Assembly (NCBI RefSeq): GCF_900102905.1
Contig: NZ_FNFV01000001.1
Coordinates: 441,501 to 505,500 of the forward strand
Direction of reading: 5' to 3'
Source of the DNA: Meinhardsimonia xiamenensis
Lineage (GTDB): Bacteria > Pseudomonadota > Alphaproteobacteria > Rhodobacterales > Rhodobacteraceae
Length of the DNA: 64,000 nt
Shown here: positions 25,082 through 29,641 of the stretch, one piece after another
How positions within the stretch are numbered: the first letter of the stretch is position 1
How the letters are laid out: every line of letters begins with the position of its first letter
Program-made: the position numbers and the translations under genes
The notes under the pieces: generated by a model
Seen by the model: only the letters and a program-made list of their open reading frames with translations
Database searches by the model: none
What the model was told of the DNA's origin: nothing

Positions 25082-26335
25082 ATGACCGGGCCAGGACACG
25101 TCCAGATGGACCAGCCGGATCGCGAGGCCGAGCCGTATTTCTCCCAGCCTGTTCGCCAGCTTCTCATGATGCTGGTGGCGCTCGGCCTTGTGCTTGCGGG
25201 CGCCTATGTCGCCTGGCCGCGGGTTTCATCCGTCTTTCTTGCCAACCCCTGGCTCAACGGAGCCATCGCAGTGGTGTTCGTGATCGGCGTGCTCGCCTGT
25301 TTCTGGCAGGTCTACCAGCAGGTGGCATCGGTCAGGTGGATCGTCGGTTTCGCCGCCAACCGCCCCGGTCACGACCAGATCAAGCCGCCCAGGCTTCTGG
25401 CCTCGATGGCGGCGCTCATGCGCACGCGCGGCCCGCATCGGCACATATCGCCGAGCTCGGCGCGCTCCATTCTCGACTCGGTGGCGAGCCGCATCGACGA
25501 GGTGCGCGACATCACGCGCTACATTGTCAACCTTCTGATCTTCCTCGGCCTTCTCGGCACCTTCTTCGGGCTTGCAACAACGGTGCCCGCGGTGGTGGAG
25601 ACGATCCGCTCGCTCGCGCCGCAGGGAGACGAGAGCGGGCTTGAAATCTTCAACCGCCTGATGGGCGGCCTCGAGAAACAGCTCGGCGGCATGGGCATCG
25701 CCTTTTCGTCCTCGCTTCTGGGCCTTGCGGGCTCGCTCGTGGTGGGATTGCTCGAGCTTATCGCCGGTCACGGTCAGAACCGTTTCTATCGCGAACTCGA
25801 GGAGTGGCTTTCGTCGATCACGCGACTGGGCTTTGCCAGTGACGGGGACGGCACGGGCAGCGATATCGGCATCGTCTCGGCGGTGCTCGACCACATGGCC
25901 GAGCAGATCGAGGCCATGCGCGGCATGTTCGCGCAGGCCGACGCATCGCGCGCGGCACTCGAGGAGCGTATCTCGGGGCTCGCCGGCGCCATCGAGGGGC
26001 TGACGGCGAAGCTCGATGCCGACCCCGCCGCCACGGGCGCGGCCCTCGGGCGCGTCGCCGCCGCGCAAGAGCGGCTGACCGAGGTGCTGGAGGCCACGGC
26101 CGCGGGCGCTCATGTCGATGCCGAAAGCCGCATGCGTCTGCGCTCGATCGACGTGCAGCTTCTGCGCATCCTCGAGGAGATGTCTGCCGGACGCCAGGAG
26201 ATTGCCGCGGAACTGCGCGCCGACCTTGCCGCACTCACACGGGCGGTGCGGGAGCTTGCCGAAGCCCAGAGCCGTGCGGCGGCCGGTGGCGACGGCGGAG
26301 CCGATCGCGCGTCGGTCGGCGCGAACAGGGGCTAG
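25082..26335 (+). CDS. MotA/TolQ/ExbB-like proton channel family protein
   Basis: A 417-residue inner-membrane protein with four predicted helices: two near the N-terminus (LLMMLVALGLVLAGAYVAW; GAIAVVFVIGVLACFW) and two in the channel core. The core motifs are LIFLGLLGTFFGLATTVPAVV and, after LMGGLEKQLGGMGIAF, SSSLLGLAGSLVVGLLELI, as in MotA/TolQ/ExbB. The about 150-residue C-terminal tail is predicted helical (repeated Ala/Glu/Leu heptads) and cytoplasmic. It lies 3 bp before the OmpA/MotB-like gene and almost surely forms a stator complex with it. ATG 25082 and ATG 25106 are both possible starts; neither has a strong ribosome-binding site. The force acceptor is unknown. Confidence 0.85.
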   Translation: MTGPGHVQMDQPDREAEPYFSQPVRQLLMMLVALGLVLAGAYVAWPRVSSVFLANPWLNGAIAVVFVIGVLACFWQVYQQVASVRWIVGFAANRPGHDQIKPPRLLASMAALMRTRGPHRHISPSSARSILDSVASRIDEVRDITRYIVNLLIFLGLLGTFFGLATTVPAVVETIRSLAPQGDESGLEIFNRLMGGLEKQLGGMGIAFSSSLLGLAGSLVVGLLELIAGHGQNRFYRELEEWLSSITRLGFASDGDGTGSDIGIVSAVLDHMAEQIEAMRGMFAQADASRAALEERISGLAGAIEGLTAKLDADPAATGAALGRVAAAQERLTEVLEATAAGAHVDAESRMRLRSIDVQLLRILEEMSAGRQEIAAELRADLAALTRAVRELAEAQSRAAAGGDGGADRASVGANRG

Positions 26336-26338
26336 GTC

Positions 26339-29300
26339 GTGGGGCTGAACCGGCGCGCCGTCAATCGCGTCTCCGGCAACATCTGGCCGGGTTTTGTCGA
26401 TGCGATGACGGGGCTTCTGCTGGTCCTGTTCTTTGTGCTGACGATCTTCATGGTTGTGCAGTTCGTCCTGCGCGAAGAAATCATCGGCCGCGACTCCGAG
26501 CTTGACCAGCTGCATGCCGAGCTTGCCGAACTTTCGCGCGCGCTCGGCCTCGAGCAGCAGCGCGCCTTCACGCTGGAACAGGATGTCGAGGCATTGCGCG
26601 CGGCGCTGTCCGACGCGCGGGCCGAAGGTGCCGCTCAGGCCGAATTGATCGGCCGTCTGCGCCAGACGATCGCTGCAGGCGAGGCGAGGATCGCGGATCA
26701 GGCCGCGCGCATCGCGAGCTTCGAGGAACAGGTCGCCTCGCTGCTGGCCGAGCGCGACAGCGCGCGTGCCGAGGGTGCGGCTCTTGCCGCCGACCTTGAA
26801 GCGCTGAAGGGAGAAAATGCCCGCCGTCTGGACGAACGCGAGGCGTTGCAGCTGGCGCTGGCCAAGGCCCGCGAGGAGATCGACGCCCAGGCGGAGGCGG
26901 CGCGTCTTGCTGCGGCCCGCCGCGAGGCGCTCGAGGCGCTGATTGCCGATCTGCGCAACCGGCTCGAGGCGCGTGAGGCGTCGCTGGCCGAGACGCTTGC
27001 GGCGCTGGACGCGGCCAAGGGCGCGAACGAGGAGGCCAACGCGCGCCTTGCCGCATTGCAGGCCGCCCTGACCGCCGAGCGCTCGGCGCGTCAGAACGTG
27101 GCCGGCGACAACGTCTCGCTGCGTGAGCAGATCCTTTCCCTGCAGGCGGCCCTCGCGGAGGAAACCGAGAGCCGGGAGGATCTCACCGCCCAGCTGATGG
27201 CGCTGAGCCAGAGGCTCGCGGCCACCGAGGCCGAGCTGAAGGAGACCGCCGCCGCGCGCGATGCCGGAGCCGCCGCCCGGGAGGAACTCAGCGCCCGTCT
27301 TGCGGAGCTCGAGGCGCGCCTCGCGCAGTCCGAGCTGCGGCGCGAGGAGCTGAGCGAGCGTCTGGCGCGCTTGCAGGAGCTGCTGACCGCGGCCGAGGCC
27401 GCGCGCCAAGGGCTTGAAGGCGATGCCGCCGCGATGCGGGCGGATATCGTCCGGCTGCAGGCGGAACTGTCGCGGGAGATCGCAGCCCGCGACGCCGCGC
27501 GCGCCGAGGCGTCGCGCCTTCAAGGCGCGCTTGCGACCGCCGAACAGAAGGCCGAAGCGCTTCGCCAGTCGCTCGGTGCGGCGACAGCGAGCGCCGAGGA
27601 AAGGCTGGCGATGCTCGAGTCGCTGCGCGCGGCGCTGGCCGAGAGCGAGGAGGCGCGCAACAGGGCCAATTCGCAGGCCGAAGCGCTGAGGGGCGAGCTT
27701 GAGCGTGCCCGCGCCGAGCTTCAGGCGGCGTCACGCGCGAGCGAAGCCGCTGAGGCCAAGGCGGCAGAACTGCAGGCGCAGGTGATGCGGCTTCGGGAAG
27801 CGCTTGATGCCGATGAGGCGGCGCGGCTTGCCGAACAGGCGGCGCTCGAGGCTCTGCGCCGCCAGCTCGAGGAAACCGAAACGCGCCTTTCCGAGCAGGA
27901 GGCGGCAAGGCTCGCCAGCGAGGCGGCGGCGGTGGCGTTGCGCCGCCAGCTCGAGGGGCTCGCCGACCGGCTCGCCGAGGAAGAGGCCGAAAGGCTCGTT
28001 CTCCAGGCCACCATCGAGTCGCTGCGCCGGGAGCTTGAGGATGCGCGGAGCACGCTCAGCGAGGAGGAACAGGCGCGCCTCGCCGAGGCGGCGACGGTCG
28101 AATCGCTGCGCCGCCAGCTGGAGGAGACGGGCGCCGCGCTGTCGCAGGCCGAAGCGGCCGAACTCGCCCAGCGTGCCGCCGTCGAGAACCTGCGCCGAAG
28201 GCTCGAGGAATTGCAGGCGCGGCTTGACGCCGGCGAGGCCGAGCGCGTGGCCGCCGAGGCCGCGCTTGAAGACTTGCGCCGCAAGCTGGAGGAAGCAGGC
28301 GCAAGGATCGACGAGGCCGAGGCGGCGCGCCTTGCCGAGGCCGCGGCGGCCGAGGAGCTTCGCAAGCGTCTCGAAAGTGCTCAGCAGGAGCTTTCGGAGC
28401 GCGAGCGCGACCTTCTGGCCGAACGCGCCGCAGCCGAGGCGTTGCGGCAAAGGCTGGCCGAGCGCGAGGCGCGGCTGTCGGAGGAGGAGAAGGCCCGTCT
28501 TGCCGAGGCTGCGGCGGCGGAGCGGCTGCGCAGGGAGCTGGCCAACGCGCAGGACGAGCTTGCCGCGATGACGCTGGTTCTGGAGGAGGAGCGCAGACGG
28601 GCGGAGGAGACGCTCACGCTGCTGGCGGCCGCCCGGGAGGCGCAGAAGGATCTGACCGAGCGCCTGCAGGCGGCGCTGGCGGCGAAGCAGGAGGCGGAAG
28701 CGGCGACCGATGCGCGCGACGATCAGATCGCCGCTCTGAAGGCCGAGCTCGAGGCGCTGCGCGCCGAGATCGACGACGAGCAGGAGTTGCGCAACCGGTT
28801 GGCGGCGGCGCTGGCCGCGCGCGAGCGTTTTGAGGAGGCCGCGAGCCGCGCCCGCGATCAGGCCAGCGAAAGGGCGCGGCTGCTGGAGCTCGCCGAGGAC
28901 GAGCTGTCGCGGAAGAATGCCGAACTTCTCGAGGGGCAGCGCAAGATGGAGGCGCTCCGCCAGGAGGTGGCGGCGCTGCGGGCGCAGCTTGGCAGCCTTC
29001 AGGCATTGCTCGACGAGGCCGCCGAGCGCGAGAAGGCGGCGCAGGTGCGGATCGAAACGCTCGGTCAGCAGCTCAACATGGCGCTGGCACGCGCAGCGGC
29101 CGAGGAGCGCCGGCGCGCCCAACTCGAGGCTGCCGAGGCCGAGCGACTCCGGCGCGAAAAGGAACAGCTCGAGCAGCAGCTTGAAACCTACCGCTCGGAG
29201 TTCTTCGGTGAGCTGCGCAAGGTGCTCGGTGGTGTCGAGGGCGTGGAGATCGTCGGCGACCGCTTCGTGTTCTCCTCGCAGGTGCTGTTCCCGTCCGGGT

Positions 29301-29641
29301 CGGCGGACCTCACCGAGGAGGGCAAGCGGCAGATCGCCAAGGTGGTGGAGATCCTTGACCGCGTGAAGGATCGCATTCCCGACTCCATCGACTGGGTTCT
29401 TCGGGTTGACGGCCACACGGACCGCCGGCCGCTGGCGCCGGGTGCGCGCTTCCGCGACAACTGGGAACTCAGCCAGGCCCGCGCAGCTTCGGTGGTGCGC
29501 TACATGGTCGACGAGCTTGGCTTTGATCCGCACCGCCTGGCCGCCGCCGGCTTCGGAGAATATCAGCCCATCGACCCGGCCGATACTGAAGAGGCATACG
29601 CCCGCAACCGCCGCATCGAGCTGAAGTTGACCGAGCGTTGA
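26339..29641 (+). CDS. MotB/OmpA-like peptidoglycan-binding protein with giant coiled coil
   Basis: A 1100-residue protein. Residues 16-45 hold a single membrane helix, WPGFVDAMTGLLLVLFFVLT, with Asp21 in the position of the proton-carrying Asp of MotB. Residues about 45-960 are an almost unbroken Ala/Glu/Arg/Leu coiled coil, including eight 28-residue tandem repeats. Residues about 973-1100 are an OmpA-like domain (VLFPSGSADLTEEG, VDGHTDRRPL, NWELSQARAASVV, NRRIELKLTE) for binding peptidoglycan. GTG 26339 lies 3 bp after the stop of the ExbB-like gene. By known MotAB/ZorAB logic, the pair should use the proton motive force to move or torque the coiled coil. The biological role is unknown. 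Confidence 0.85.
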   Translation: MGLNRRAVNRVSGNIWPGFVDAMTGLLLVLFFVLTIFMVVQFVLREEIIGRDSELDQLHAELAELSRALGLEQQRAFTLEQDVEALRAALSDARAEGAAQAELIGRLRQTIAAGEARIADQAARIASFEEQVASLLAERDSARAEGAALAADLEALKGENARRLDEREALQLALAKAREEIDAQAEAARLAAARREALEALIADLRNRLEAREASLAETLAALDAAKGANEEANARLAALQAALTAERSARQNVAGDNVSLREQILSLQAALAEETESREDLTAQLMALSQRLAATEAELKETAAARDAGAAAREELSARLAELEARLAQSELRREELSERLARLQELLTAAEAARQGLEGDAAAMRADIVRLQAELSREIAARDAARAEASRLQGALATAEQKAEALRQSLGAATASAEERLAMLESLRAALAESEEARNRANSQAEALRGELERARAELQAASRASEAAEAKAAELQAQVMRLREALDADEAARLAEQAALEALRRQLEETETRLSEQEAARLASEAAAVALRRQLEGLADRLAEEEAERLVLQATIESLRRELEDARSTLSEEEQARLAEAATVESLRRQLEETGAALSQAEAAELAQRAAVENLRRRLEELQARLDAGEAERVAAEAALEDLRRKLEEAGARIDEAEAARLAEAAAAEELRKRLESAQQELSERERDLLAERAAAEALRQRLAEREARLSEEEKARLAEAAAAERLRRELANAQDELAAMTLVLEEERRRAEETLTLLAAAREAQKDLTERLQAALAAKQEAEAATDARDDQIAALKAELEALRAEIDDEQELRNRLAAALAARERFEEAASRARDQASERARLLELAEDELSRKNAELLEGQRKMEALRQEVAALRAQLGSLQALLDEAAEREKAAQVRIETLGQQLNMALARAAAEERRRAQLEAAEAERLRREKEQLEQQLETYRSEFFGELRKVLGGVEGVEIVGDRFVFSSQVLFPSGSADLTEEGKRQIAKVVEILDRVKDRIPDSIDWVLRVDGHTDRRPLAPGARFRDNWELSQARAASVVRYMVDELGFDPHRLAAAGFGEYQPIDPADTEEAYARNRRIELKLTER
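27854..28525 (+). repeat. Eight tandem 84-bp coding repeats (28 residues each)
   Basis: Exactly eight in-frame units of 28 residues (four heptads) cover residues 506-729 of the OmpA-like protein. Each begins LRRxLE (LRRQLE, LRRELE, LRRRLE, LRRKLE, LRKRLE, LRQRLA) and carries a conserved E-A-x-R-L-A-E-A-A core. A partial unit precedes (LREALDADEAARLAE) and another follows (LRRELANAQ). DNA identity between units is moderate, so the array is old rather than a recent expansion. Confidence 0.85.

Follow-up and report, generated by a model that had tools for sequence, protein, structure and literature searches.

An adjacent pair of stator-like genes

We analysed a 64,000-nucleotide stretch of the Meinhardsimonia xiamenensis genome (contig NZ_FNFV01000001.1), hereafter the window. 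It carries two genes, A and B, on the same strand and separated by three bases (gtc, 26336–26338), an arrangement given in a preliminary description of this DNA and borne out by an open reading frame check (Table 1). ATG 25106, where most aligned homologues begin, is likely to be the true start of A. A hydropathy scan of A gave four main hydrophobic segments (peaks at residues 27–45, 57–75, 148–166 and 206–224), with flanking sub-peaks at 20–38 and 157–175; the cytoplasmic C-terminal tail has ~165 residues. The GLLGT motif was found in 171 of the 175 A sequences of at least 230 residues, and a regular expression for the motif of the fourth transmembrane (TM) helix matched 77 of the 175, a pattern too strict to use. 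From its motif, we take Ser211 to be the counterpart of the threonine in TM3 of ExbB and TolQ. A regular expression for the core of the conserved C-terminal element matched 133 of the 134 A proteins from Rhodobacteraceae and none of 51 from elsewhere; by eye, a looser version can be made out in most A proteins from outside this family. In loci L194 and L195 (genomes G306 and G187, 0.9 Mb), A extends only a little past its final TM helix and has no such element, which is thus not needed everywhere.

Table 1. Features of the A–B locus, in window coordinates
Feature	Position	Strand	Remarks
Gene A, MotA/TolQ/ExbB-type membrane subunit (predicted), 417 aa	25082..26335	+	ORF
Thr160 of A, third TM helix	25559..25561	+	GLLGT motif
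Ser211 of A, fourth TM helix	25712..25714	+	invariant in 68 sequences
Conserved cytoplasmic C-terminal element of A, residues 346–381	26117..26224	+	DAESRMRLRSIDVQLLRILEEMSAGRQE...LRAD
Gene B, MotB-like, 1100 aa	26339..29641	+	GTG start; PRK09039/NF006542 family
Asp21 of B, just before TM helix	26399..26401	+	in IWPGFVDAMT
TM helix of B, residues 26–44	26414..26470	+	sole hydrophobic segment, KD mean 3.01
Coiled coil and linker of B, residues 45–940, 896 aa	26471..29158	+	
Unbroken single heptad phase, 714 residues	26471..28612	+	
OmpA/MotB-type peptidoglycan-binding domain of B, residues 983–1091	29285..29611	+	

B belongs to NCBIfam family NF006542, 'peptidoglycan -binding protein', which it matches with 721.4 bits against a curated cut-off of 388. 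The family (also PRK09039) has the same N-terminal TM helix, coil and OmpA domain, but its model spans 627 positions compared with 1100 residues in B, and its name mentions no motor partner. The N-terminus of B is basic, and the aspartate next to the TM helix is present in all 186 B N-terminal matches (172 distinct). Pfam PF00691 (OmpA) matched the C-terminal domain with an E value of 1.5e-17, and the best structure matches of the B OmpA profile were MotB structures. As read from its sequence, B has both marks of a MotB-type protein, a membrane aspartate and a C-terminal OmpA domain.

Fold and family of A

Unlike B with NF006542, A has no matching Pfam model: PF01618 (MotA_ExbB) gave no match to A at E values up to 10, and the gathering threshold was not reached. 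An AlphaFold model of A based on 68 sequences had a mean pLDDT of 79.6, with values of ~88–97 over most of the TM core. Among the best 50 of 986 chains realigned to this model, ranks 1–20 were TolQ, ExbB or ZorA (Z 11.6–10.0), rank 21 (Z 10.0) went to a designed three-helix bundle and the first MotA chain came at rank 24; a Z of ~11 is within reach of unrelated helical bundles, which limits the weight of these ranks. The top Foldseek rows for the model were likewise TolQ, ExbB and ZorA, with probabilities near 1 and a best E value of 3.9e-3, there being no match at E ≤ 0.001. Searched against PDB sequences, the A profile found unrelated coiled coils and no stator chain, and its hhalign comparisons with TolQ, MotA and ExbB of the same genome were not significant. 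The PADLOC ZorA1 profile matched A over residues 142–381 (E 1.1e-10), and the ZorB3 profile matched B (E 6.1e-21). The fold ranks, the GLLGT motif, the ZorA profile and the constant partner B are each weak evidence of membership alone; together they place A, as modelled, in the fold of the MotA/TolQ/ExbB structural superfamily.

In TolR and ExbD, their own domain stands where B has its OmpA domain. TolQR and ExbBD provide the closest solved folds of A among the chains listed and have the GLLGT motif in common with it, but A has four TM helices compared with three in TolQ and ExbB (according to the accessible text of PMC6570709). A PF01618 search of the genome hit four other places, A not among them, which we read from their sequences as TolQ (with a TolR-like frame), ExbB (with ExbD-like frames), MotA and a fourth protein; the window's pair appears to duplicate none of these. 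The fourth protein (L004; G000:C9:186176-186472, − strand) lies beside an acs-like gene, and it is the sole PF01618 protein of the genome matched by the A profile (hhalign E 6e-7, probability 92%).

Distribution and independence of flagella

We surveyed 385 alphaproteobacterial genomes with thresholds of E ≤ 1e-8 for A and E ≤ 1e-25 for B (by OmpA profile). A was detected in 248 and B in 247; 242 genomes had both and 132 neither, with just A in 6 and just B in 5, so that both genes occur in 242 of the 253 genomes with either one. Within the window's family, sampled as 120 genomes of one genus each, B scored above the NF006542 cut-off in 111. Five of the 120 (G008, G023, G068, G098 and G108) had no B better than E 1e-25; A was absent as well from three of them and present in two, once as a partial match. 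One of the three, G023, is 100% complete, and the pair is therefore dispensable. Across 299 genomes of the phylum, 64 had A at E ≤ 1e-25, 5 of them outside the class. The pair is mainly alphaproteobacterial.

A scripted adjacency test found B immediately after A, with both on one strand, in 178 of 179 loci, which come from overlapping collections (L006 and L083, for example) and amount to 169 distinct A C-termini. In the sole failure, L182, the B frame extends back over A and homology to B starts just after A. L215, fetched after this count, has a divergent, short B-like gene before A. Genomes G250, G351 and G434 have 3, 3 and 2 B-type OmpA matches, respectively, which indicates that duplicates of B exist; the stretch fetched around one duplicate (L177) contained no A. 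The preliminary description had read the pair as stator-like, and had staked that reading beforehand on orthologues keeping the aspartate and the channel residues and on the two genes occurring together. The aspartate and the GLLGT motif are retained, the phylogenetic profile above unites the genes and the fold of A agrees.

The four-TM A and the B with membrane aspartate and OmpA domain resemble MotAB and PomAB, and the genome has fliF with a MotA-like gene near it, as might be expected if the pair were an accessory stator of the flagellum. That gene, the probable flagellar MotA (C9:210668), is however separate from the pair and lies 2.4 kb from fliF. Eight genomes of 0.7–1.4 Mb all have A, B and mraY (8/8 each) and none has fliF (0/8), which argues against a flagellar stator; G055, a complete Rhodobacteraceae genome, also has the pair and no fliF, and G023 has fliF and no pair. 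In contrast to MotAB and PomAB, the pair is independent of flagella, and we regard a flagellar role as hardly probable at all.

A survey of MotAB relatives states, in its accessible text, that non-flagellar B subunits are without an OmpA-like domain (PMC12505986); to that statement the A–B family is an exception. The same text gives E. coli MotB a short plug and linker of ~50 residues, compared with coils of 102–2159 residues in B. The flagella-less Komagataeibacter hansenii has adjacent motA and motB genes, described in the accessible parts of PMC6570709 and PMC6315621 as encoding proteins of 348 and 321 aa with four TM helices and an OmpA-like domain. Overexpression of these genes lengthened the cells and sped up colony spreading, green fluorescent protein (GFP) fusions were polar, and over 98% of its length MotB shared 46% identity with an OmpA/MotB protein of Rhizobium gallicum (PMC6570709, PMC6315621, same parts). 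Because of its size, its topology and this identity to the Rhizobium protein, the K. hansenii pair as published is likely to be orthologous to A and B, in a short form unlike the window's long-coiled B. In the literature searched, outside most subscription journals and bioRxiv, the pair was found probably in these two Komagataeibacter papers only, and the long coil was not mentioned.

Gene neighbourhood

In 60 named Rhodobacteraceae loci of at least 15 kb, chaC, A and B were present in all 60, DUF2125 in 55 and clpA in 52; counts in the same set were 51 for hisC and tyrA, 50 for gloB, 48 for extensin and 34 for M23. The named loci were taken from the best 80 of 588 relatives and are for that reason nearly all from Rhodobacteraceae. 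The 20 loci from other families yielded, apart from A and B, none of these genes; suhB (14/20) and efp (12/20), both identified by sequence reading, recur there. The A–B pair is thus the stable unit of the locus. It follows that the adjoining M23 peptidase gene, from which envelope remodelling had been guessed in the preliminary description, is weak evidence on function: a relative of the window's M23 gene does lie near the pair in the 34 Rhodobacteraceae loci, but in 0 of the 20 others, as counted by blastp at E 1e-15, a search that may overlook M23 proteins of other kinds.

The same neighbourhoods bear on a Zorya-type anti-phage system, in which the pair would be a ZorAB-like sensor motor with its long lever on the periplasmic side. 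The accessible text of PMC11890865 describes ZorAB as a motor of 5:2 stoichiometry in which the cytoplasmic tail is bundled and ZorB binds the wall. An A/B pair, a membrane aspartate and wall-binding domain in B and a cytoplasmic tail of A are common to both systems, but the long helical element is periplasmic and part of B here, whereas in ZorAB it is the cytoplasmic tail of A (PMC11890865, same text). The likeness to ZorAB pointed out in the preliminary description is upheld by the two profile matches and by the presence of ZorA structures in the top fold matches listed for A. As that description also had it, the companion genes did not turn up nearby: the 10 neighbouring window proteins examined gave no ZorC/D/E-type match, and one of them, taken as ClpA, had AAA matches that point to other systems. 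Since no zorC/D/E was found nearby, the pair does not appear to be Zorya. It is syntenic with housekeeping genes in the 60 named loci and, unlike a mobile defence system, is both widespread (242 of 385 genomes) and retained in the eight genomes of 0.7–1.4 Mb; it looks like a core gene pair rather than part of a defence island. A Zorya function is very improbable.

In eight of the 20 other-family loci (L202, L203, L204, L206, L216, L217, L219 and L220), a probably secreted, proline-rich protein that ends in an OmpA domain is encoded just upstream of A. This protein is a candidate third component; in the window's genome it has no clear counterpart, the best match being a 649-aa OmpA-domain frame (E 6.8e-7). 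Either it or B could be the equivalent of Pal or TolA at division, and the pair would then be a Tol–Pal-like energiser of the outer membrane. TolQ gives the best fold matches of A, and the cell elongation on overexpression in Komagataeibacter (PMC6570709, PMC6315621, parts cited above) would suit such a role. By sequence reading, however, the genome has its own TolQ–TolR and a probable Pal. TolQ–TolR lies elsewhere in the genome, the neighbours of the pair in Rhodobacteraceae being chaC, clpA and others, and B itself bears an OmpA/MotB domain. Given also the lack of a clear upstream counterpart in the window's genome, we judge this explanation unlikely.

Register of the coil in the window

The coil and linker of B contain no proline and 22 glycines. 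When the region was cut into 21 non-overlapping segments of 42 residues each, the best heptad phase was identical in 17 consecutive segments; in 500 residue shuffles, the longest single-phase run averaged 2.5 and reached at most 7. A 28-residue repeat stood out against a heptad-preserving shuffle, with z values of 8.8 at lag 28 and 10.2 at lag 56, and the DNA of the window's B had no tandem repeats of note. The rise per residue of a coiled coil is 0.1485 nm. At this rise, the single-register stretch corresponds to ~106 nm and the coil and linker, as a straight two-stranded coil, to ~133 nm. A coil of that length far exceeds the periplasm, as the preliminary description had said, and would have to run along the envelope. 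The long coil it reported, of ~915 residues, is present but measures 896 with the linker, and folding back, one of the three arrangements it named beside lateral packing and lying along the wall, is not necessary: hairpins would be expected to interrupt the heptad register, and the single register over 714 residues without proline favours, as far as the sequence can tell, a straight rod along the envelope over folded hairpins.

Coil length across homologues

For coil lengths we used 168 full B frames (159 non-identical), after removing frames truncated at a contig end and frames short of OmpA model position 157. In the 159 proteins, the coil ranged from 102 residues (L186) to 2159 residues (L153), and in 157 it had no proline. 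Total length was 435–2363 residues (median 683) in Rhodobacteraceae (n = 121) and 304–631 residues (median 419) in other families (n = 38). The window's B had the longest single-phase run of 121 coils, the median being 210 residues.

The length from the aspartate to the end of B was strongly non-uniform modulo 7, with class counts of [8,9,37,10,5,38,14] for the 121 Rhodobacteraceae proteins (p 7.6e-13; 4e-8 for the 97 distinct lengths only) and [23,1,2,2,8,1,1] for other families (p 8.7e-14; 1.4e-5 for the 27 distinct lengths only), in statistics that ignore kinship and are not tree-corrected. Moduli 3–6 and 8–11 were not significant in Rhodobacteraceae; in other families moduli 4 and 8 were nominally significant too (p 0.005 and 0.007). 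In Rhodobacteraceae, the two peaks lie 3 apart, as they might if one stutter separated them. Among 44 best-neighbour pairs differing in length, 12 differed by a multiple of 7 where 6.3 were expected (p 0.027), in a test less powerful than the length counts. As controls, the spacer of A from TM4 to the C-terminal motif was also non-uniform modulo 7 (p 0.005), and the whole A tail length gave p 0.19. A tail length and B coil length were not correlated (Spearman 0.13, p 0.17, n 108). We conclude that coil length is quantised in heptads.

The longest B, of 2363 aa counted from its aligned start (L153:1505-8596), has a 339-base tandem repeat in its coil, in 5.9 copies with 96% match. Heptad-classed lengths, the 28-residue repeat and this tandem repeat point to in-register repeat duplication as the way in which the coil is lengthened.

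The coil may instead be no straight rod, forming a folded helical bundle or drifting neutrally in length as a tolerant spacer. AlphaFold breaks the helix of B at low-confidence points, in a model that is poor overall (pLDDT 63, pTM 0.29). Coil length differs by 98 residues between L111 and L122, whose A partners are 90.1% identical, and domain II of TolA provides a deletion-tolerant precedent (accessible text of PMC12204202). Against this reading stand the one phase held over 714 residues, the absence of proline and the heptad-quantised lengths, found in two separate samples. Length drift under a rod constraint would be compatible with a rod. We consider a folded or freely drifting coil possible, if rather unlikely.

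Discussion

The family to which B belongs is known; what is new is the extreme coil length and its quantisation in heptads. We think it probable that the pair is an ion-driven, non-flagellar motor whose coil has been lengthened by heptads into a rod and which serves envelope growth or division. As presumed members of the superfamily of TolQR, ExbBD, MotAB and ZorAB, A and B would be ion-driven. By analogy, five A subunits would surround two B helices, and proton flow past the aspartate of B and the threonine and serine of A would turn or strain A against B, which would grip peptidoglycan with its OmpA domains. From motor to wall anchor, the two B chains would form one parallel two-stranded coiled coil. 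Short coils (102–140 residues, ~15–21 nm) may serve as upright tethers; in the window's family, whole heptads would have been inserted to give a stiff rod of 60–320 nm lying along the envelope. Forced into this position, the rod would place the wall anchor perhaps at least 100 nm from the motor. The conserved C-terminal element of A may be the docking site of a putative cytoplasmic partner. The pair would most likely act in envelope growth or division, as a link that carries force between the wall and the energised inner membrane. The sole experimental hint on function is the overexpression of the probable orthologue in K. hansenii, as far as the published parts cited above describe it.

A more far-reaching proposal is that a rigid rod of up to ~320 nm, lengthened heptad by heptad, acts as a long-range coupler or strain gauge between the proton motive force and distant peptidoglycan. 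We put this forward tentatively and hold it to be doubtful; if true, it would be a mode of coupling absent from the descriptions of TolQR, ExbBD, MotAB and ZorAB in the literature surveyed. The standard Pfam model misses the A subunit of this pair, which is widespread in Alphaproteobacteria and retained in genomes of less than 1 Mb. With natural coils of 15–320 nm between nearly constant ends, the family would offer a length series for studying force transfer through the periplasm and the importance, if any, of reach.
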